Positions 11,450 to 20,414 of a DNA stretch of 64,000 nucleotides are shown in pieces; positions within the stretch are counted from its first letter, which is position 1, and every line of letters starts with the position of its first letter. The position numbers and the translations under genes were made by a program. Under the pieces are notes generated by a model, which searched no databases, was not told the origin of the DNA, and saw only the letters and a program-made list of their open reading frames with translations. The DNA comes from an uncultured Pelagibacteraceae bacterium (GTDB taxonomy: Bacteria; Pseudomonadota; Alphaproteobacteria; Pelagibacterales; Pelagibacteraceae): positions 1 to 64,000 of the forward strand of contig CACKJD010000002.1 of NCBI GenBank assembly GCA_902600485.1. The letters run 5' to 3'.

Positions 11450-11531
11450 ATTTTACTCCTTTTTTTGTGTTTTTGCTTATGCTTGGTTCACAATAAAGTT
11501 TAAACACCCATTTAAAACCTTTTAAGGGTAT
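11450..11531 (-). promoter_or_regulatory. metY leader with H-type pseudoknot; candidate SAM-II/SAM-V-like riboswitch
   Basis: Read on the minus strand, AUACCC (11531-11526) pairs with GGGUGU (11509-11504) in a 6-bp stem. The A/U-rich loop carries GGUU (11519-11516), which can pair with AACC (11488-11485) downstream, making an H-type pseudoknot. An AAGCAUAAGC segment and the AGGAG ribosome site follow. SAM-II and SAM-V aptamers are small H-type pseudoknots, and SAM-V was first described in Candidatus Pelagibacter; methionine genes are their targets. The folding is seen in the sequence; the ligand is inference. Confidence 0.5.
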
Positions 11532-13546: not shown

Positions 13547-13716
13547 TGCGAGTAATATATCTTATTTTTTTTGTTATTTTGTTATCTTGTAATAAAAATA
13601 TTAATGAAAAAAAAACATACAAAATTAATATAAATGATAATTTAACATTTAATGAGTTCAAAAAGTTGATAGAAGAAAAAGGATTAAAGAAAGATTATCC
13701 TGATATTAATCAATGA
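13546..13716 (+). CDS. Small putative lipoprotein between argC and hom
   Basis: A 56-residue ORF, too short for common cut-offs. MRVIYLIFFVILLSC is a clear type II signal with a lipobox-like LLSC, so Cys15 would be lipidated and the mature part would be only ~42 residues: a basic linker, then NLTFNEFKKLIEEKGLKKDYPDIN. The start overlaps the argC stop (TAATG) and the stop overlaps the hom start (ATGA), so it is coupled on both sides. I do not recognise a family. A role in the envelope is inferred from the signal only. Confidence 0.7.
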   Translation: MRVIYLIFFVILLSCNKNINEKKTYKININDNLTFNEFKKLIEEKGLKKDYPDINQ

Positions 13717-15005
13717 AAAATAAAATAAATATTGCTATTGTTGGGTTAGGTCAAATTGGTAATCATCTTTTTAATGAAATTAAAATTAAAAAAAAAGAGA
13801 TAGAACTACTCACTGGAAAAAAAATTAATATAGCAGCTATTTCAGCAAAAAATAAAAATAAAAAAAGAAAATTTAAAATTAACAAAAAGATTTTCTATAA
13901 AAATCCTCTTAAAATTATTAATAAAAATAAAATTGATATTTTATTCGAATGTATAGGTTTATCTGATGGAATTTCAAAAAAAGTTGTGGAAAAAGCTCTA
14001 AAAAATTGCATACATGTGATAACCCCGAATAAAGCTTTAATTTCTAAACATGGAGATTATTTAAGTAATATAGCGGAGAGAAAAAAAGTAAATCTTGAAT
14101 TTGAAGCATCTGTTGGAGGTGGTATTCCTATTTTACGTACAATAAAAGAAGGTTTGTCTACAAATAGAATAACTAAAGTTTATGGAATTCTAAATGGTAC
14201 ATGTAATTATCTTCTATCAGAAATGGACAGAACTAATGATAATTTTAAAAATGTTTTAAAAAAAGCACAAAGGCTAGGTTATGCAGAACCTGGTGACCCA
14301 AGGCTAGACATAAACGGATATGACACATTAGCTAAAGTAAGAATTCTATCTTCTTTAGCTTTTAAAAAGAAAATTTCGAAAAACAATCTTTTAATGGAGG
14401 GAATTGAAAATATTGAGCCAAAAGATTTTAAAATAGCAAATCAATTAAATCTTAAAATAAAATTATTAGGTATAACCGAGATCATTAATAATAGTTTATT
14501 TGAAAGAGTTCACCCATGTCTTGTAAATAAAAAAAGCTATATAGGTAATGTGGATGGTGTTATGAATGCGGTTATATTAGAAGGAAAACCTGTTGGAGAA
14601 AGTATTTTACAGGGGGAAGGAGCTGGCCCTGGACCAACATCATCAGCACTAATGTCAGATTTGCTTTCTATTTTAAGAGGTAATATCAAAAATCCGTTAG
14701 GAGTTTCTAGTAGTAAAAGAAGTTATATTTCCTCATTTAATGTAAATAATTATGAAAATTCTCTATATTTAAGATTTGAAGTTAAAGATAAACCTGGTGT
14801 TTTGTCAGAAATAACAAAAAATTTAGCCAAAAACCGTATTTCGATACAAAGAATGATACAAATACCAAACAATAAACTTAAAACAGCATCTATAGTAATT
14901 ATTACACACAAAACAAAACAAATTAATTCAAATAATTTTCTAAAATTATTAAAAAAAAACAAAAAAATTCTTAAAAGACCAGTCTTGTTAAGACTTTTTG
15001 ATTGA
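13713..15005 (+). CDS. hom: Homoserine dehydrogenase with C-terminal ACT domain
   Basis: NAD(P)H-dependent reduction of aspartate semialdehyde to homoserine, precursor of threonine and methionine (and of the MetY substrate). GLGQIGNHLF is the nucleotide-binding loop, then ITPNKALIS, FEASVGGGIPIL, the catalytic YGILNGTCNYLLSEM and GYAEPGDPRLDINGYDTLAK. Residues ~345-430 form an ACT domain (YLRFEVKDKPGVLSEITKNLAK), a likely threonine-feedback site. The gene ends the conserved region; sugar-modifying genes follow with a 1-nt overlap. In most alphaproteobacteria glpX and recJ come next, but here they are ~10 kb away and inverted. Confidence 0.96.
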   Translation: MKNKINIAIVGLGQIGNHLFNEIKIKKKEIELLTGKKINIAAISAKNKNKKRKFKINKKIFYKNPLKIINKNKIDILFECIGLSDGISKKVVEKALKNCIHVITPNKALISKHGDYLSNIAERKKVNLEFEASVGGGIPILRTIKEGLSTNRITKVYGILNGTCNYLLSEMDRTNDNFKNVLKKAQRLGYAEPGDPRLDINGYDTLAKVRILSSLAFKKKISKNNLLMEGIENIEPKDFKIANQLNLKIKLLGITEIINNSLFERVHPCLVNKKSYIGNVDGVMNAVILEGKPVGESILQGEGAGPGPTSSALMSDLLSILRGNIKNPLGVSSSKRSYISSFNVNNYENSLYLRFEVKDKPGVLSEITKNLAKNRISIQRMIQIPNNKLKTASIVIITHKTKQINSNNFLKLLKKNKKILKRPVLLRLFD

Positions 15006-15997
15006 TGAATATACTATTTTATTGTCCATCAAAATTTAATTTAAAGTCAAAAAATAATAATAGTTTAGGAGGTATAGAAACTTTAAATTTGGAATTATCA
15101 AATATTCTTTCATCAAACAAATATAAAATATTTTTATCTACAATTTGTAAAAAAGTTCTTAGAAAAAAAAATTTAATAAATTTACCAATCTCGACTATAA
15201 AAAAAAATAATAACTATGACTTCAATTATATAATTAGTTCTAATGATCCAAGTATATTTAATTATTATAAAAATTCTAAAAATATATTATGGATGCATAA
15301 TACTCTTGCTATCGAAAAAGCTATAAGAAAAAAAAAAATTATTTCAATATTAACAAATAAAATTAACGCTGTTTTTGTAAGTGAATATTTAAAAAATAAT
15401 ACTTCTAAATTATTTAATTTTAAATCAAGAACTGTAATCCCAAATTTTTTGTCCGAAGAATTTGATAAAATCAAATTTAACTATTATAGAAAACCCAATG
15501 TTATTTGGTCTGTTAGCAGAAATAGAGGATTAGATGAGTTTGTTAAAATTTGGATTAATGACATATCAAAAAAATATTCTAAAGCAAATCTACATATTTT
15601 CGGTATAAAAAAATACAAGCATAAAGATAAATTAAAAAAATATAATATTTTTTTTCACGGGCGAGTTAAAAAGAAAATTCTAAAAAAATATTACGAAAAA
15701 TCTGTTTGTTCTATTTGTCTTGGATACGACGAAACTTTTTGTTTAAATGCAATTGAGTCCATGTCTTGCGGAACCCCTGTTCTTAGTTTTAAAATGACAG
15801 CTTTAAATTTTTTAATCAAAAATGGTAAAAATGGTTATAAAGCAGAAAATTTTAAAGATTTGGCATCAAAAATAAAAAAGATTATTAGTTTAAGATTAGA
15901 AAAAAGAAAAAAAATAATTAAAACAACGTTATCATTTTCGAGAAAATACAAAATAAAAAAAATTAAAAAAAAATGGGAAAAAATATTTAATAAATGA
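15005..15997 (+). CDS. Glycosyltransferase, GT4-like
   Basis: A 330-aa protein with the two-domain GT-B layout. The N-terminal NILFYCPSKFN...GGIETLNLELSNIL shows the GG-x-E acceptor-side motif. The C-terminal half has WSVSRNRGLDEFVKIW, LHIFG, FFHGRV, and CLGYDETFCLNAIESMSCGTPVLSF, where E-x-F-C-x-x-x-x-E is the nucleotide-sugar motif. It probably extends a surface glycan; donor and acceptor cannot be told. An in-frame TTG lies one codon upstream; ATG 15005 gives a TGATG junction with hom. First of five coupled accessory genes. Confidence 0.85.
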   Translation: MNILFYCPSKFNLKSKNNNSLGGIETLNLELSNILSSNKYKIFLSTICKKVLRKKNLINLPISTIKKNNNYDFNYIISSNDPSIFNYYKNSKNILWMHNTLAIEKAIRKKKIISILTNKINAVFVSEYLKNNTSKLFNFKSRTVIPNFLSEEFDKIKFNYYRKPNVIWSVSRNRGLDEFVKIWINDISKKYSKANLHIFGIKKYKHKDKLKKYNIFFHGRVKKKILKKYYEKSVCSICLGYDETFCLNAIESMSCGTPVLSFKMTALNFLIKNGKNGYKAENFKDLASKIKKIISLRLEKRKKIIKTTLSFSRKYKIKKIKKKWEKIFNK

Positions 15998-16815
15998 AAA
16001 AAAAATTAAAACTTTTACAAAGAATTAAAAAAGAAATATTAAAGGGATTATCAAGGATCAAATGGATTATGATATCGAATTATATTTATTATTTTAGAAA
16101 AATTTTTCAAAAAAAAAATAAAGTTAAAAATAAGATTGCTATTTTAGTGCCGTCTAAACAGCGTATTATTAGACTACAGCGTTTTATTGATAGCTTAATT
16201 AATAATACAAGTGATATTAATAGAATATATATTGAAATATTAATAGATGAAGATGAATTACAAAAAAATGAATATATAAATTATATAAACAATTTAAAAA
16301 AAAACTTTAATATTAACTTACATGTCAAAAATGAAAAAACTCACAATTTAAGAAATAATTTTTTGGCAAGTAAGATTAATTGTGATTTATATTTTCCATT
16401 AAATGATGATGTAATATTTATATTAAAAAATTGGGACGATTATATAGATGATGTAAATTCTTATATACCTAAAGATAAACCTTTTTCAATTTGGACTAAA
16501 GCTAGTACTAAGTATCCTTATTTACATAGTGAATTTCCTATTGTTAACAATAGTTGGTATAAAAAACTAGGTTATATTGGAAATTATCATCTTTTTGGAT
16601 ACATAGACACGTGGATTTGCGAATTAGGCAAAATATCTAAAAAATTTATTATTGCAAAAACAAAATTTATAGAACATCTAAATGTTGAAATAAAAGGATC
16701 AAGAGATATAAAAGATAAAACTTATCATGATCTCATGATATCTCAAAAAGATGATCTTGATTTATGGCAAAAAACTAAAAACATTAGATTAGAGGATAGT
16801 AAAAAGCTATTATGA
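15994..16815 (+). CDS. Glycosyltransferase, GT2-like (GT-A fold)
   Basis: A 273-aa protein with a basic N-terminus of ~45 residues, then KIAILVPSKQRIIRLQRFIDSL, resembling the start of GT-A transferases. YIEILIDEDE and LYFPLNDDVIF supply the acidic metal-binding residues (DDD-like). GNYHLFGYIDTWICELGKI may form the acceptor end. The family assignment is from these patterns only. Overlaps both neighbours by ATGA, so it belongs to the same transcript. Confidence 0.7.
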   Translation: MKKKLKLLQRIKKEILKGLSRIKWIMISNYIYYFRKIFQKKNKVKNKIAILVPSKQRIIRLQRFIDSLINNTSDINRIYIEILIDEDELQKNEYINYINNLKKNFNINLHVKNEKTHNLRNNFLASKINCDLYFPLNDDVIFILKNWDDYIDDVNSYIPKDKPFSIWTKASTKYPYLHSEFPIVNNSWYKKLGYIGNYHLFGYIDTWICELGKISKKFIIAKTKFIEHLNVEIKGSRDIKDKTYHDLMISQKDDLDLWQKTKNIRLEDSKKLL

Positions 16816-18059
16816 AAATAGGATTTGTAGGATTGGGTAAACTTGGATTGCCTGTTGCATTGGCTGTAGAGTCAAAAGGCCACGATGTAGTTGGTTATGA
16901 TATTTCTCAAAATGTAAAAAATATTATAGAAGCAAAAAAAATTCCATACAAAGAAATTTGGGCTCAAGATTATTTAGATAAAAGTAATATCAAATTTGAA
17001 CAACTAGATAAAGTTGTAAGTCATTCAGAGATAATATTTGTACCAATACAAACACCTCATGATCCTTTGTACGAAGGAATTACAAGAATACCCGATAAAA
17101 GAGTTGATTTCGATTACACATATTTAATTTCTGGTATGAAAAAACTCTCAGCTGAAATTGAAAAACAAGGATCTGATAAGGTAGTGATTATAATTTCTAC
17201 AGTATTACCTGGAACTATAAGACAACAAATAAAACCGTTTTTAGGTAAGCATACTAAAATTTGTTATAACCCTTTTTTTATAGCGATGGGTACGACCATG
17301 AAGGATTTTTTATACCCTGAATTTATTTTATTTGGTGTTGATGATTTAAAGGCCGCGAATAAAGCAGAAAAATTTTATAGAACTATCAATAACGCTACTT
17401 TTTTTAAGACAACTATTGAAAATGCAGAATTAATTAAGGTTTCGTATAACACATTTATTTCAACAAAAATTGCATTTATTAATACCATCATGGAAATGTG
17501 TCATAAACTTCCAAACACTAATGTTGACGATGTTACTAATGCACTTATGTTAGGTAATAAGAGACTAATAAGTGGTGCTTATTTACGAGGTGGGATGGGA
17601 GATGGTGGTGGATGTCATCCTAGAGACAATATTGCTTTGTCGTGGTTAGCTAGAAAATTGAATATAAGCAACGATTTTTTTGATCAAATCATGATGCAAA
17701 GAGAAAAGCAAACAGATTGGCTAGTTGAACTTATTATACAAAATCAGATTAAAAATAAAAAAACTTATATTCTTGGAAAATCATTTAAACCTGAGACTAA
17801 TATAATGACCGGAAGTCCGTCTATATTGCTAGATAATTTATTAAAAGAGAAGGGGATAGAAGCAATAAAATATGACCCGTATGTTGATCAAAATAAGCCT
17901 GTATTTGAACAAGGTGTATATTTTATAGGTACTAAACATGAAATATTTGAAAAATTTAAATTTCCACATGGTTCTGTTGTAATTGATCCTTTCAGAATGA
18001 TAAATCAAGAATTAGAACATGTTAAAGTTATAAGAATTGGAAATAATAATGATATTTAA
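16812..18059 (+). CDS. Nucleotide-sugar dehydrogenase (UDP-glucose/GDP-mannose dehydrogenase family)
   Basis: A 415-aa NAD-dependent enzyme oxidising a nucleotide sugar to its uronic acid. KIGFVGLGKLGLPVALAVESKGHDVVGYD is the Rossmann motif. KVSYNTFISTKIAFINTIMEMC supplies the catalytic Lys (~209). The catalytic Cys is 268 in GMGDGGGCHPRDN, where the family more often has GGSCFPKD. The C-terminal TYILGKSFKPETNIMTGSPS is the second nucleotide-binding domain. Exact sugar unknown. Its base composition looks a little less AT-rich than its neighbours in the island. It likely supplies a precursor to the two transferases. Confidence 0.88.
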   Translation: MKIGFVGLGKLGLPVALAVESKGHDVVGYDISQNVKNIIEAKKIPYKEIWAQDYLDKSNIKFEQLDKVVSHSEIIFVPIQTPHDPLYEGITRIPDKRVDFDYTYLISGMKKLSAEIEKQGSDKVVIIISTVLPGTIRQQIKPFLGKHTKICYNPFFIAMGTTMKDFLYPEFILFGVDDLKAANKAEKFYRTINNATFFKTTIENAELIKVSYNTFISTKIAFINTIMEMCHKLPNTNVDDVTNALMLGNKRLISGAYLRGGMGDGGGCHPRDNIALSWLARKLNISNDFFDQIMMQREKQTDWLVELIIQNQIKNKKTYILGKSFKPETNIMTGSPSILLDNLLKEKGIEAIKYDPYVDQNKPVFEQGVYFIGTKHEIFEKFKFPHGSVVIDPFRMINQELEHVKVIRIGNNNDI

Positions 18060-18061
18060 CA

Positions 18062-18841
18062 ATGAATAAATTAAATAAAATATCTAAAAGATATTGGAAT
18101 AAGCAACCTTGTAATATTAAACATTCTAAAAAAAAATTTTTATCTAAAGAATATTTTAATGAGATATCCAAAAAAAGATATTTTGTAGAATCCCATATTA
18201 AAGATTTTGTTCAATTTTCAAAATGGAAAAATAAAAAAGTTCTTGAAATCGGTTTCGGTATTGGGACAGATGCAATTGAGTTTCTAAAAAATGGAGCTTA
18301 CTATTATGGTATTGAACTGTCTGACAAATCGTTTGATATTACAAAAGCAAGAATTAATTTATTTAATTATAACAATAAATCCAAACTAATAAATGATGAA
18401 GCAGAAAATTTAAATAAATATTTTAATTCAAATAGCAATCTAGACTTAATCTATTCTTTTGGTGTTCTTCATCACTCATCAAGTTTAAAGAAATGTTTAA
18501 AATCTATACGTAGTATAATGAATAAAAAAACTATATGTAAAATTATGCTATATGCAAAAAATAGCTATAAATATTTCTTAATGAAAGATAATTTAATTCG
18601 CTATGAAGCTCAGAAAGGAGTTCCTGTAATAGATTTTTACAACATAGATGATTTAAATCAGTTATTTAAAAAATTCAAAATTCTTGAAATTAAACAAGAT
18701 TTTATTTTTCCTTATAAAATTAAACCCTATAAGAGAAATAAATATTATAAGATTGATCATTTTAAATATATGAAAAAAGATATATTTAATTCGTTAAAAA
18801 AAAATTTAGGAGAGCATCTTTTAATTACTTTAAAAAAATAA
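18062..18841 (+). CDS. SAM-dependent methyltransferase, class I
   Basis: A 259-aa protein with the Rossmann methyltransferase core: VLEIGFGIGTDAIEFLKNGAYYYGIELSDKSFDI (motif I and acidic ribose-binding E) and LIYSFGVLHHSSSLKKCLKSI (motif IV-like with a double His). The N-terminal WNKQPCNIKHSKK segment occurs in sugar or lipid methyltransferases of surface clusters. The substrate is unknown; position suggests a glycan. It ends the plus-strand island operon, facing the integrase gene. Confidence 0.85.
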   Translation: MNKLNKISKRYWNKQPCNIKHSKKKFLSKEYFNEISKKRYFVESHIKDFVQFSKWKNKKVLEIGFGIGTDAIEFLKNGAYYYGIELSDKSFDITKARINLFNYNNKSKLINDEAENLNKYFNSNSNLDLIYSFGVLHHSSSLKKCLKSIRSIMNKKTICKIMLYAKNSYKYFLMKDNLIRYEAQKGVPVIDFYNIDDLNQLFKKFKILEIKQDFIFPYKIKPYKRNKYYKIDHFKYMKKDIFNSLKKNLGEHLLITLKK

Positions 18842-18850
18842 TTTTTTTTA

Positions 18851-19804
18851 TCACATCTTTATTTTATTTAATGCATTGTTTTTAAAAATATTTGCCTCTT
18901 TTATGTATCTTCTAACCATTTGTGTTGTTTTGTGACCAGTCATTGCCATAATACTACGTTCATCAGCACCAGATTCTGCAGCAACAGTTGCAAAACCAGA
19001 TCTTAAACTATGACCTGCAAAATTTTTATTTTCAATGCCCGCTAGTTTTAAGTATTCTTTTATTAACAAAACTACGGATTGATCTGTTAATCTATTTTCA
19101 GTTAAAGTTGATCCTTTAGAAAATCTTCTAAAAATAGGTCCAGATTTTATTTTAGAAATTTGTAACCAATTTTTAAGATTAGCCACTGGACAATAATTTT
19201 CATTAGTGAAGTAGGGTAGACCTTTCATCATTCCTTCACCAAATTGATCAGTTTTTGATCTTCTGATGACGATTTTGAGACCCTCAGTTACAAACTCTAA
19301 GTCCTCATAGTCAATTGAAATGAGCTCAGTTCGTCTAAAACCACCTCCAAAGCCTATTAGGATTATTGTCTTATCTCTTGACTTCTTAATTTCTTCAATT
19401 TTTTGTTCATTTATTACATCAATTATTGATTTTAAATGATTGATTAATAAAGGTTTTTTACCTTTCTGAATACTTCCTTTTACCCTTCTTATTCCCATTA
19501 AGTTTTCAACAATGATTGGATGTTTTGTATCTAAATAATGCCCTTTTAGTTTATGAACCATGCTAATTGAAACTAATCTTCTTCTTAAAGTGCTGATTTT
19601 TAAATTTTTAGAAAGTTGAGTAAGGTATAAAGAAACAATTTTAGGCTCAGATGGTAAAGAATTTAAACCATGTTTAGCACAAAAAGCTCCAAAGTCTTTA
19701 AAGTCTGATTTATATGCTCTTAAAGTGTTATTTGCTTTAGAACTTTTGAGGTTATTTAAAGTTGTCTCATGAAGCGATTTTAGTTCTGTTGTCAGTTCAT
19801 TCAT
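18851..19804 (-). CDS. Tyrosine recombinase / integrase, solitary
   Basis: A 317-aa site-specific recombinase. Residues 1-95 form the helical core-binding domain. Residues ~115-317 are the catalytic domain with a full active site: Arg at 157/158 (GFRRTELI), Lys184 (RRSKTDQ), His265-x-x-Arg268 (GHSLRSGF), His291 (GHKTTQMV) and nucleophile Tyr300. All residues are present, so it should be active. No excisionase, phage or transfer genes lie near. A small inverted repeat and a GC-rich RNA-like locus lie just upstream. Distinguishing mobile-element integrase from a XerC/D-like resolvase is not possible from sequence alone. Confidence 0.9.
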   Translation of the reverse strand: MNELTTELKSLHETTLNNLKSSKANNTLRAYKSDFKDFGAFCAKHGLNSLPSEPKIVSLYLTQLSKNLKISTLRRRLVSISMVHKLKGHYLDTKHPIIVENLMGIRRVKGSIQKGKKPLLINHLKSIIDVINEQKIEEIKKSRDKTIILIGFGGGFRRTELISIDYEDLEFVTEGLKIVIRRSKTDQFGEGMMKGLPYFTNENYCPVANLKNWLQISKIKSGPIFRRFSKGSTLTENRLTDQSVVLLIKEYLKLAGIENKNFAGHSLRSGFATVAAESGADERSIMAMTGHKTTQMVRRYIKEANIFKNNALNKIKM

Positions 19805-19815
19805 ATAATTACTAT

Positions 19816-19834
19816 TGATAACAATTAATTATCA
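19816..19834. repeat. Inverted repeat upstream of the integrase
   Basis: TGATAA (19816-19821) and TTATCA (19829-19834) form a perfect 6-bp inverted repeat with a 7-nt centre, 12 nt before the integrase start codon. Tyrosine recombinases often use arms of this size flanking a 6-8 nt core, and autorepressor operators look alike. Chance is possible in AT-rich DNA. Confidence 0.4.
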
Positions 19835-19957
19835 TTAGTAATATATTATTAAAAATACTTTGTCAAGAACTAAAGTTATTAACACAATCCACATGAGACC
19901 CATAAATCAATCAAAAAGTGATACATACAACCATTATCATTTGTTAAATTTAATTAA

Positions 19958-20140
19958 TTAAGGGGCAACCCTTAACTGGCCGACTGGGGAAAGGCCGAGA
20001 GGACCAAGCCCAGGGGGCAGAAAGTCTTACGGAGTAGCGCTAAAATCGTAGGGCGGAAGGCATGGCGGTAGCGCATACAACGACGTGCCAAAACAACTGT
20101 TCTTTGCACCGTAAAAAGTGCAGAGAAACAGGGGTTTTTT
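19958..20140 (+). ncRNA. GC-rich structured RNA-like locus of unknown family
   Basis: 69 of 120 bases in 19981-20100 are G/C, in an otherwise very AT-rich window. Successive helices can be drawn: TTAAGGG-GCAA-CCCTTAA (19958-19975, GNRA loop); GGCC/GGCC (19978-19996); AGGAC/GTCTT enclosing GCCC/GGGC (20000-20028); TACG/CGTA (20028-20050); GGCATG/CGTGCC enclosing GCG/CGC (20059-20089); and a long final hairpin (20098-20130) followed by GGGG and six T. Such a chain of hairpins ending in a T run suggests a transcribed RNA on the plus strand, possibly continuing into ogt. I could not match it to tmRNA, RNase P RNA, SRP RNA, 6S or a known riboswitch. Strand is inferred from the terminal T run. Confidence 0.65.
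20098..20140 (+). terminator. Terminator-like hairpin ending the RNA locus
   Basis: CTTTGCAC (20102-20109) pairs with GTGCAGAG (20118-20125), and TGTT/AACA extends the stem with one bulge, giving 12 bp. Four G and six T follow. The T run begins 4 nt after the stem, so termination may be partial; ogt starts 5 nt after it. Confidence 0.45.
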
Positions 20141-20144
20141 CTTA

Positions 20145-20414
20145 ATGAGAGGTACTAAATTTCAAATCAAAGTCTGGAAATATCTTAAAAAGATCCCCAA
20201 AGGATCAGTTAAAACATATAAAGATGTTGCAATAGCTATAAATAAGCCAAAAGCAGCGCGGGCTGTAGCAAATGCCTGTGCTAAGAACCCATATGCTCCC
20301 AAAATACCCTGTCATAGAGTAATTAGGTCTGATGGAGGTCTTGGTGGCTATTCTGGCAGAGGTGGTGTAAAAAAAAAAGTAAGTTTATTAAGGTCTGAAA
20401 AAGTTCAAATTTAA
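20145..20414 (+). CDS. Methylated-DNA-protein cysteine methyltransferase family (Ogt C-terminal domain)
   Basis: An 89-aa protein consisting only of the DNA-binding and active-site domain of O6-alkylguanine-DNA alkyltransferases. FQIKVWKYLKKIPKGSVKTYKDVA, AARAVANACAKNP, and the alkyl-acceptor Cys in KIPCHRVIRSDGGLGGYSGRG are clear. Full-length Ogt/Ada proteins have ~160 residues with an N-terminal domain that is missing here. The acceptor Cys is kept, so this is not the alkyltransferase-like class with Trp at that site. I chose ATG 20145 over an in-frame ATG at 20118, which lies inside the RNA hairpin. Confidence 0.85.
   Translation: MRGTKFQIKVWKYLKKIPKGSVKTYKDVAIAINKPKAARAVANACAKNPYAPKIPCHRVIRSDGGLGGYSGRGGVKKKVSLLRSEKVQI

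Follow-up and report, generated by a model that had tools for sequence, protein, structure and literature searches.

What is a GC-rich cluster of hairpins doing beside a lone integrase in an otherwise AT-rich stretch of DNA? The question was raised by 64,000 nucleotides from an uncultured Pelagibacteraceae bacterium (contig CACKJD010000002.1 of assembly GCA_902600485.1; hereafter the window), in which a reading of the letters alone had proposed a structured RNA of unknown family that might be an orphan non-coding RNA, a recombination substrate or a leader for ogt. G+C content across the window is 26.9%, and our recount agreed that 69 of the 120 bases at 19981-20100 are G or C; on a 10-nt grid the GC-richest 120-nt stretches of the 64 kb (71/120) start here, at 19961 and 19971. 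The nearness to two genes had also been described correctly, with the recombinase ORF starting at 19804 and ogt at 20145. When the strand 19950-20142 was folded, we obtained -73.2 kcal/mol, compared with -51.7 +/- 4.1 in 200 dinucleotide shuffles (z = -5.3), none of which folded equally well.

Identity and fold of the hairpin cluster

Scanning the segment against all Rfam families revealed that the cluster is the gene for IMES-2. RF02035 matched 19951-20091 over its full length (model positions 1-141) with 158.3 bits, compared with a gathering score of 54.7, and an E value of 1.3e-43; it was the sole match in the segment to reach its gathering score, and the nested helices of Rfam's structure line for the family were present at the locus. 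Because of this 158-bit match the family is a known one, and the original prediction, which had called it unknown and had named a confident Rfam match beforehand as the result that would speak against this, was mistaken on that point. Its claim of a structured non-coding RNA was upheld by the full-length match, by the fold energy relative to shuffles and by the covariation described below. Other Rfam identities were rejected, the remaining matches up to E 10 lying far under their cut-offs, and the scan of the segment likewise rejected a tRNA or tmRNA. Among the three proposed roles, that of an orphan non-coding RNA stands: to our knowledge IMES-2 is an orphan motif, and we know of no function for the family. 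Members of the family are expected to be transcribed in marine microbial communities, and the motif was reportedly first described by Weinberg et al. in 2009. Among the papers searched, the name IMES-2 turned up in one, on the giant squid genome; other searches for the IMES name and the original title returned nothing relevant, and neither did passages of PMC2864571.

The locus and the Rfam entry share the same 141 positions and nested helices. The RNA gene exceeds the model in both directions: downstream a covarying terminator hairpin takes it to about 20140, and upstream stands a promoter block that is conserved as well (Table 1); a kissing loop, the host family and four gene neighbourhoods are also described here beyond the Rfam model.

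Table 1. Features of the IMES-2 locus and its flanks in the window
Feature	Position	Strand	Remarks
Lone tyrosine recombinase, candidate single-protein Xer	18851..19804	-	PF00589, 4.3e-20
33-bp near-perfect palindrome, candidate dif-type core site, not part of IMES-2	19809..19841	.	Immediately upstream of the recombinase gene
Two adjacent head-to-tail DnaA-box-like 9-mers (TTATTAACA, CAATCCACA)	19876..19893	+	Three mismatches in total to two TTWTNCACA
Conserved promoter box ATCAAYNAAAAAGTGATACAT	19906..19926	+	20-21 nt ahead of the -10; by eye
Extended -10-like element TTGTTAAAT	19941..19949	+	By eye
IMES-2 RNA, RF02035 core	19951..20091	+	158.3 bits, full-length model match
Hairpin 1, 7 bp, GNRA loop GCAA	19958..19975	+	GCAA in 96 and GUAA in 2 of 98 rows
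Hairpin 2, internal loops, GNRA apical loop GAGA	19976..20020	+	GAGA in 90, GCAA in 5, GAAA in 2 and GCGA in 1 of 98 rows
Hairpin 3, loop with GCGCUA (20037-20042)	20024..20054	+	Double changes in 8/8 stem pairs
Hairpin 4, loop with UAGCGC (20069-20074)	20059..20089	+	Loop is the partner of 20037-20042
Predicted intrinsic terminator, hairpin and T run, outside the Rfam model	20097..20140	+	Double changes in 11/13 pairs
ogt, methylated-DNA methyltransferase, neighbour and not part of IMES-2	20145..20414	+	PF01035, 2.7e-32; ORF listed from 20118

Loci were gathered in two collections. The first comprised 114 loci from 108 distinct genomes (L001-L030 and parts of L073-L099, L104-L183 and L204-L218), including named records reached via the recombinase (the best 80 of 556), with the label g1 serving for all of them whatever their genus; the second comprised 46 loci less L254, a repeat of L294, and L270, leaving 44. 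A model named R1, built from 30 loci with the 3' part included (197 positions), matched the window at 19947-20143. In alignment A4 (98 rows, 96 distinct), fitted like the other alignments to a model derived from part of the same sequences, a structure of 54 pairs, counted with the kissing loop and the terminator, had standard pairs in 98.7% of cells and double changes in 30 pairs, a number that none of 500 shuffles reached. When partners were shifted by 1-3 columns, pairing fell to 33-43%. The compensatory changes for which the original prediction had suggested looking are thus present in related genomes. The GNRA form of the apical loops of hairpins 1 and 2 was kept across the 98 rows despite changes of letter. 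Hairpin 2 is where the most divergent genera differ. The most divergent copies, at 62-95 bits, belong to genera g285 and g5 (loci L271-L273 and L274-L279), and with their altered hairpin 2 and long end hairpins they could be used as structural variants.

In every one of the 98 rows of A4 the end hairpin is followed by a run of at least three T, and at the window locus the end hairpin and T run are, judged from their sequence, an intrinsic terminator. In the second collection a run of at least four T was located 25-75 nt behind the core in 35 of the 44 loci, including 3 of 10 in genus g282 and 2 of 3 in g284, with one locus of the collection cut off. Seven of the ten g282 loci (L255, L280-L284 and L297) keep the end hairpin with no run of at least four T behind it; a different hairpin was seen by eye at the terminator position in L209, L211 and other genera.

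The GCAA-capped 7-bp hairpin, the GGCATG/CGTGCC helix and the end hairpin with its six T were all located where they had been predicted (19958-19975, 20059-20089 and 20097-20131). The inner GCG/CGC hairpin that had been drawn within the GGCATG/CGTGCC helix can be formed on paper, and it competes with a covariation-backed pairing between the loops of hairpins 3 and 4, in which GCGCUA (20037-20042) and UAGCGC (20069-20074) are able to form 6 bp. This pairing is absent from the RF02035 structure line used in the Rfam search. Support for it was modest in the first collection (8 double-change cells compared with 2.8 when shuffled). Across 12 genera 95.0% of the cells of the kissing helix were paired, with 36 double-change cells compared with 6.9 when shuffled, and none of 500 shuffles reached its pairing, its double-change cells or its covariation score. 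Two other measures gave no such signal: 3 pairs had double changes, compared with 2.6 when shuffled (293 of 500 shuffles as high), and 7 pair types occurred, compared with 5.7 (45 of 500 as high). In 73 rows the loops read GCGCUA/UAGCGC in 35, GCACUU/UAGUGC in 9, GUACUA/UAGUAC in 6, GUGCUA/UAGCAC in 3, GUUCUA/UAGAAC in 2 and GAACUA/UAGUUC in 1, besides others, and some rows had a mismatch at one end. In the alignment concerned, A5, the spurious second matches L024 and L128 were left out or counted as gaps. A 6-bp kissing interaction between the two loops is therefore supported by covariation; the data could equally fit a contact between two molecules instead of within one. As a tertiary contact, the kissing loop could be exploited in structure work.

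The committed state of these loops bears on how the RNA might act. An antisense small RNA would pair with mRNAs through its loops or through the GCAGAAAG linker, and the locus does look like a stand-alone small-RNA gene with a few short conserved single-stranded stretches. However, the best seed candidates, GCGCUA and UAGCGC, are consumed by their mutual pairing and co-vary, and in our judgement no long single-stranded seed is evident; we consider antisense action rather unlikely. With most of the conserved loops taken up by GNRA turns or by their mutual pairing, protein binding is in our view the likeliest mode of action, a proposal that we make tentatively.

Gene neighbourhoods and occurrence of IMES-2

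When the surroundings of IMES-2 were compared across 12 genera, we found that it occupies four unrelated neighbourhoods. Nine genera have it behind mnmA (31 of 32 loci, the remaining one, L270, having been misplaced in the analysis), usually with an opposite-strand ORF of no assigned identity after it and, in six of the nine, a metC-like gene next or soon after; the gene names at this place come from a scan of L221 and from similarity. In one genus (3/3 loci) it lies between selO and an rmuC-like gene, named by eye, the scanned piece giving no Pfam match, and in another (6/6 loci) between a nuclease gene and an SRAP gene. Its usual place in the window's genus is the interval between the tyrosine recombinase and ogt. 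Two genomes of this genus, G313 and G225, have it between mnmA and metC with the recombinase on another contig. For the one-contig genomes G536 and G812, record coordinates put about 470 and 740 kb between IMES-2 and the recombinase. Since the mnmA place recurs in nine genera and in these two genomes, G313 and G225, it is probably the ancestral one. The four unrelated neighbourhoods therefore argue for a free-standing and probably trans-acting gene, and not for an ogt leader or a recombination site; they place IMES-2, within one SAR11 family, as a movable and self-contained gene.

The interval between recombinase and ogt was variable. At 35 of 159 scorable recombinase loci (some genomes being counted twice, and the label IMES resting on two short patterns for loci outside the two alignments) ogt is present without IMES-2, and many of these loci hold other small genes in the gap. 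In L061-L072 and L104-L183 the interval, with or without IMES-2, resembles a small hot spot at which genes are interchanged; by eye, its occupants include an acetyltransferase-like ORF and genes for short membrane-like proteins (about 55, 70 and 157 aa). Because IMES-2 occurs in other neighbourhoods, and both ogt and the recombinase persist without it, neither gene is an obligatory partner. On trees that were all poorly resolved, presence of IMES-2 was clustered on the ogt tree (5 changes compared with 30.2 when shuffled), less clustered on the eamA tree (15 compared with 29.1) and not clustered on the recombinase tree (30 compared with 30.2), a contrast that we read as recombination between the recombinase and IMES-2, as far as the poor resolution of the trees allows.

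These data can be set against the idea of a cis-acting leader or attenuator, in which the terminator hairpin would pass transcription into ogt on some signal. Of the 114 loci in the first collection, 109 have the start of ogt 0-20 nt past the terminator, which leaves scant space for a promoter of its own, and the presence of IMES-2 tracks the ogt allele on the tree as a cis role predicts. However, the constant association with ogt expected of such a leader was not found, given the four neighbourhoods and the 35 of 159 loci that keep ogt without IMES-2: genes other than ogt adjoin IMES-2, with its promoter block retained, in 11 other genera, and G313 and G225 also lack an adjoining ogt. The other five loci of the first collection comprise two with a gap of 194-197 nt (L006 and L151, the latter with a small ORF inside the gap), two without a nearby ogt and one cut by the contig end. 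The suggestion of a leader for ogt, made in the original prediction, is thus improbable. The ogt product itself is very short, about 90 aa.

IMES-2 was found in 203 of 297 genomes of the SAR11 family and in 12 of its 14 genera, with one copy each; likewise, a single match per positive genome was seen in the rows listed. Within the window's genus its presence was patchy (198 of 399 genomes, and 29 of the 58 that were at least 90% complete and little contaminated), suggesting that IMES-2 is dispensable there. Among 101 relatives, 30 were positive, every one in the window's genus, and the named loci sharing the recombinase (the best 80 of 556) were Pelagibacteraceae or Pelagibacterales records. 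Under stricter filters, none of 40 genomes of the sister family had IMES-2, and a class-wide search with R1, a model from the window's genus alone, found it in 1 of 385 genomes, which was the window itself. The class-wide search is a weak negative, because it missed G536 and G812, in which the Rfam model detected the RNA. A viral carrier was rejected on scans of viral contigs, in which two pattern scans gave 4 stretches and 0 with no IMES-2 and the full model gave no more than a 23-nt fragment in L225 that scored 15.6 bits, and of phage records, which had no IMES-2 match.

We also considered a diverged housekeeping RNA of the lineage (6S, SRP, RNase P RNA or tmRNA). The known fold of 6S RNA is a single long bulged hairpin. 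The idea gains from the Rfam 6S model (RF00013), which detected 6S in 5 of 14 control genomes and in none of 31 SAR11 genomes. However, RF00013 gave no match at 19700-20300 up to E 10, the IMES-2 fold is unlike that of 6S, and IMES-2 is found in about half of the genus; replacement of 6S was rejected after the search of SAR11 and control genomes. What IMES-2 shares with 6S RNA is a stand-alone single-copy gene and, possibly, a mode of action. Furthermore, P. ubique is reported to have tmRNA, SRP RNA and RNase P RNA of its own (PMC2704228), so IMES-2 is not their substitute, and a housekeeping identity of any of these kinds is highly improbable. A DNA recombination or attachment site, the remaining role in the original prediction, is scarcely credible: a complete recombinase adjoins and the strand can form hairpins, but the covariation is of RNA type with a kissing loop and GNRA loops, the recombinase persists with ogt at loci without IMES-2 (the 35 of 159 above), a different palindrome likewise persists with the recombinase where IMES-2 is missing, and IMES-2 of other genera persists apart from the recombinase.

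Promoter block and proposed mode of action

The free-standing gene appears to carry its own promoter block, which was found in all 12 IMES-2-positive genera. From the positions of the promoter box and the -10-like element, transcription would start near 19950-19957. In all 114 loci of the first collection GTGAT stood 46-49 nt ahead of the first GGCAAC (or GGUAAC), and the box was seen by eye with base changes in other genera and neighbourhoods, reading GAGAT or GCGAT in two genera. Matches to the exact box pattern, a strict one that missed many IMES-2 promoters, numbered 13 and fell in 9 of 31 genomes; 7 were located at IMES-2, and the reversed control gave 11; membership of a wider regulon was rejected, there being no sign of it relative to that control.

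Ahead of the box lies the tandem of 9-mers, whose consensus is approximately TTATCCMCA CTATTCACA; both 9-mers of the window differ from TTATCCACA at two positions each. The DnaA-box consensus is TTWTNCACA, and the tandem was scored against two copies of it. With up to four mismatches the tandem was found in 134 of 148 distinct IMES-2 upstreams, compared with 17 when shuffled in blocks of two and 11 when reversed, and with up to three mismatches in 95, compared with 1 and 1; in random DNA of five SAR11 genomes the corresponding shares of 130-nt stretches were about 8% and about 1%. It was present in all 12 positive genera, and a spacing of 9 bp, picked after inspection though all spacings from 7 to 13 were scored, was outstanding among them. 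These matches raise the possibility that IMES-2 is a DnaA-controlled structured RNA, its synthesis tied through the tandem boxes to the state of the replication initiator, which we nevertheless regard as unlikely. If true, IMES-2 would report the replication state to a target, perhaps a protein, in an abundant ocean lineage; we know of no bacterial example of a small RNA class with such a role.

Overall, we read the locus as the whole gene of IMES-2, standing on its own and yielding a structured small RNA of about 185-190 nt that acts in trans; on the sequence data we give this reading a probability of roughly 0.77. A free-standing gene is very likely. Action in trans is likely too, because of the promoter block of its own, the terminator, the conserved core in four neighbourhoods, the single copy and the rigid fold. 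Under this reading, the tandem DnaA-box-like element and the AAAAAGTGAT box would be recognised by a regulator, under which the + strand would be transcribed from about 19950 to about 20140, and the promoter block and, in the window, the intrinsic terminator would make this a separate transcription unit. By comparison across relatives, the RNA folds with two GNRA-capped hairpins in front and, behind them, two further hairpins held together by the 6-bp kissing loop; it might bind a protein in the manner of 6S RNA, without belonging to that family, rather than act mainly by antisense pairing. With the promoter elements and close relatives without IMES-2 now named, its function is open to testing.

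The neighbouring recombinase and its palindrome

The integrase beside IMES-2 was analysed in its own right. In the one-contig genome G012 it is the only match to the XerD model, to which its likeness is distant (70.6 bits, with a cut-off of 329.6). Of 37 genomes sampled from the genus, 26 had XerD-model matches of about 40-79 bits, and the best match in the sister family was about 252-326 bits in 24 of 24 sampled genomes. No recombinase match was seen in four genomes of 90-95% completeness from the window's genus (G033, G037, G039 and G056), for which incompleteness is the sole explanation we offer. The 33-bp palindrome is AT-rich and intergenic, with G or C at 5 of 33 bases as counted by eye, and its best inverted repeat has 13-bp arms around a 7-bp centre. 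Among 81 genomes searched, 31 matched the palindrome pattern, all 31 with one copy each, and the reversed pattern matched none of the 81; G005 and G029 have the recombinase and no exact match to the pattern. In all six one-contig genomes tested, in sampled 20-kb stretches, GC skew turned from positive to negative at the recombinase, and one of the six, G859, has IMES-2 beside it. In the window the skew, which is noisy, changes sign at about 20 kb; that of G012 is noisy elsewhere as well, being negative, for example, at 140-160 kb.

A 2009 survey describes Pelagibacter ubique as having no dif/Xer system, and gives the features of dif and single-recombinase sites as palindromic, AT-rich, intergenic, linked to the recombinase and located at the GC-skew switch (PMC2731167). 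Among the literature matches listed for dif/Xer in SAR11 or Pelagibacter, no title or abstract start was contrary to the survey. With XerS/difSL and XerH/difH, as the survey describes them (PMC2731167), the SAR11 locus shares a single tyrosine recombinase, a linked palindromic, AT-rich and intergenic site and the skew switch; those sites have a central hexanucleotide, whereas the best-scoring arms of the SAR11 palindrome flank 7 bp. In these SAR11 genomes the integrase seems to be the sole Xer recombinase and is accompanied by a single-copy dif-like palindrome, suggesting that SAR11 bacteria may have their own single-recombinase version of dif/Xer at the replication terminus.

On the other side of the recombinase, genes for a methyltransferase and a UDP-sugar dehydrogenase, together with others that by eye are glycosyltransferase-like, occupy 13713-18841 right up to the recombinase. 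The replication terminus thus appears to mark the edge of a sugar-gene island, which may be a variable one. The window also contains a SAM-V riboswitch at 11453-11518 on the - strand (52.1 bits), which in several relatives too lies within a few kb of the IMES-2 locus.
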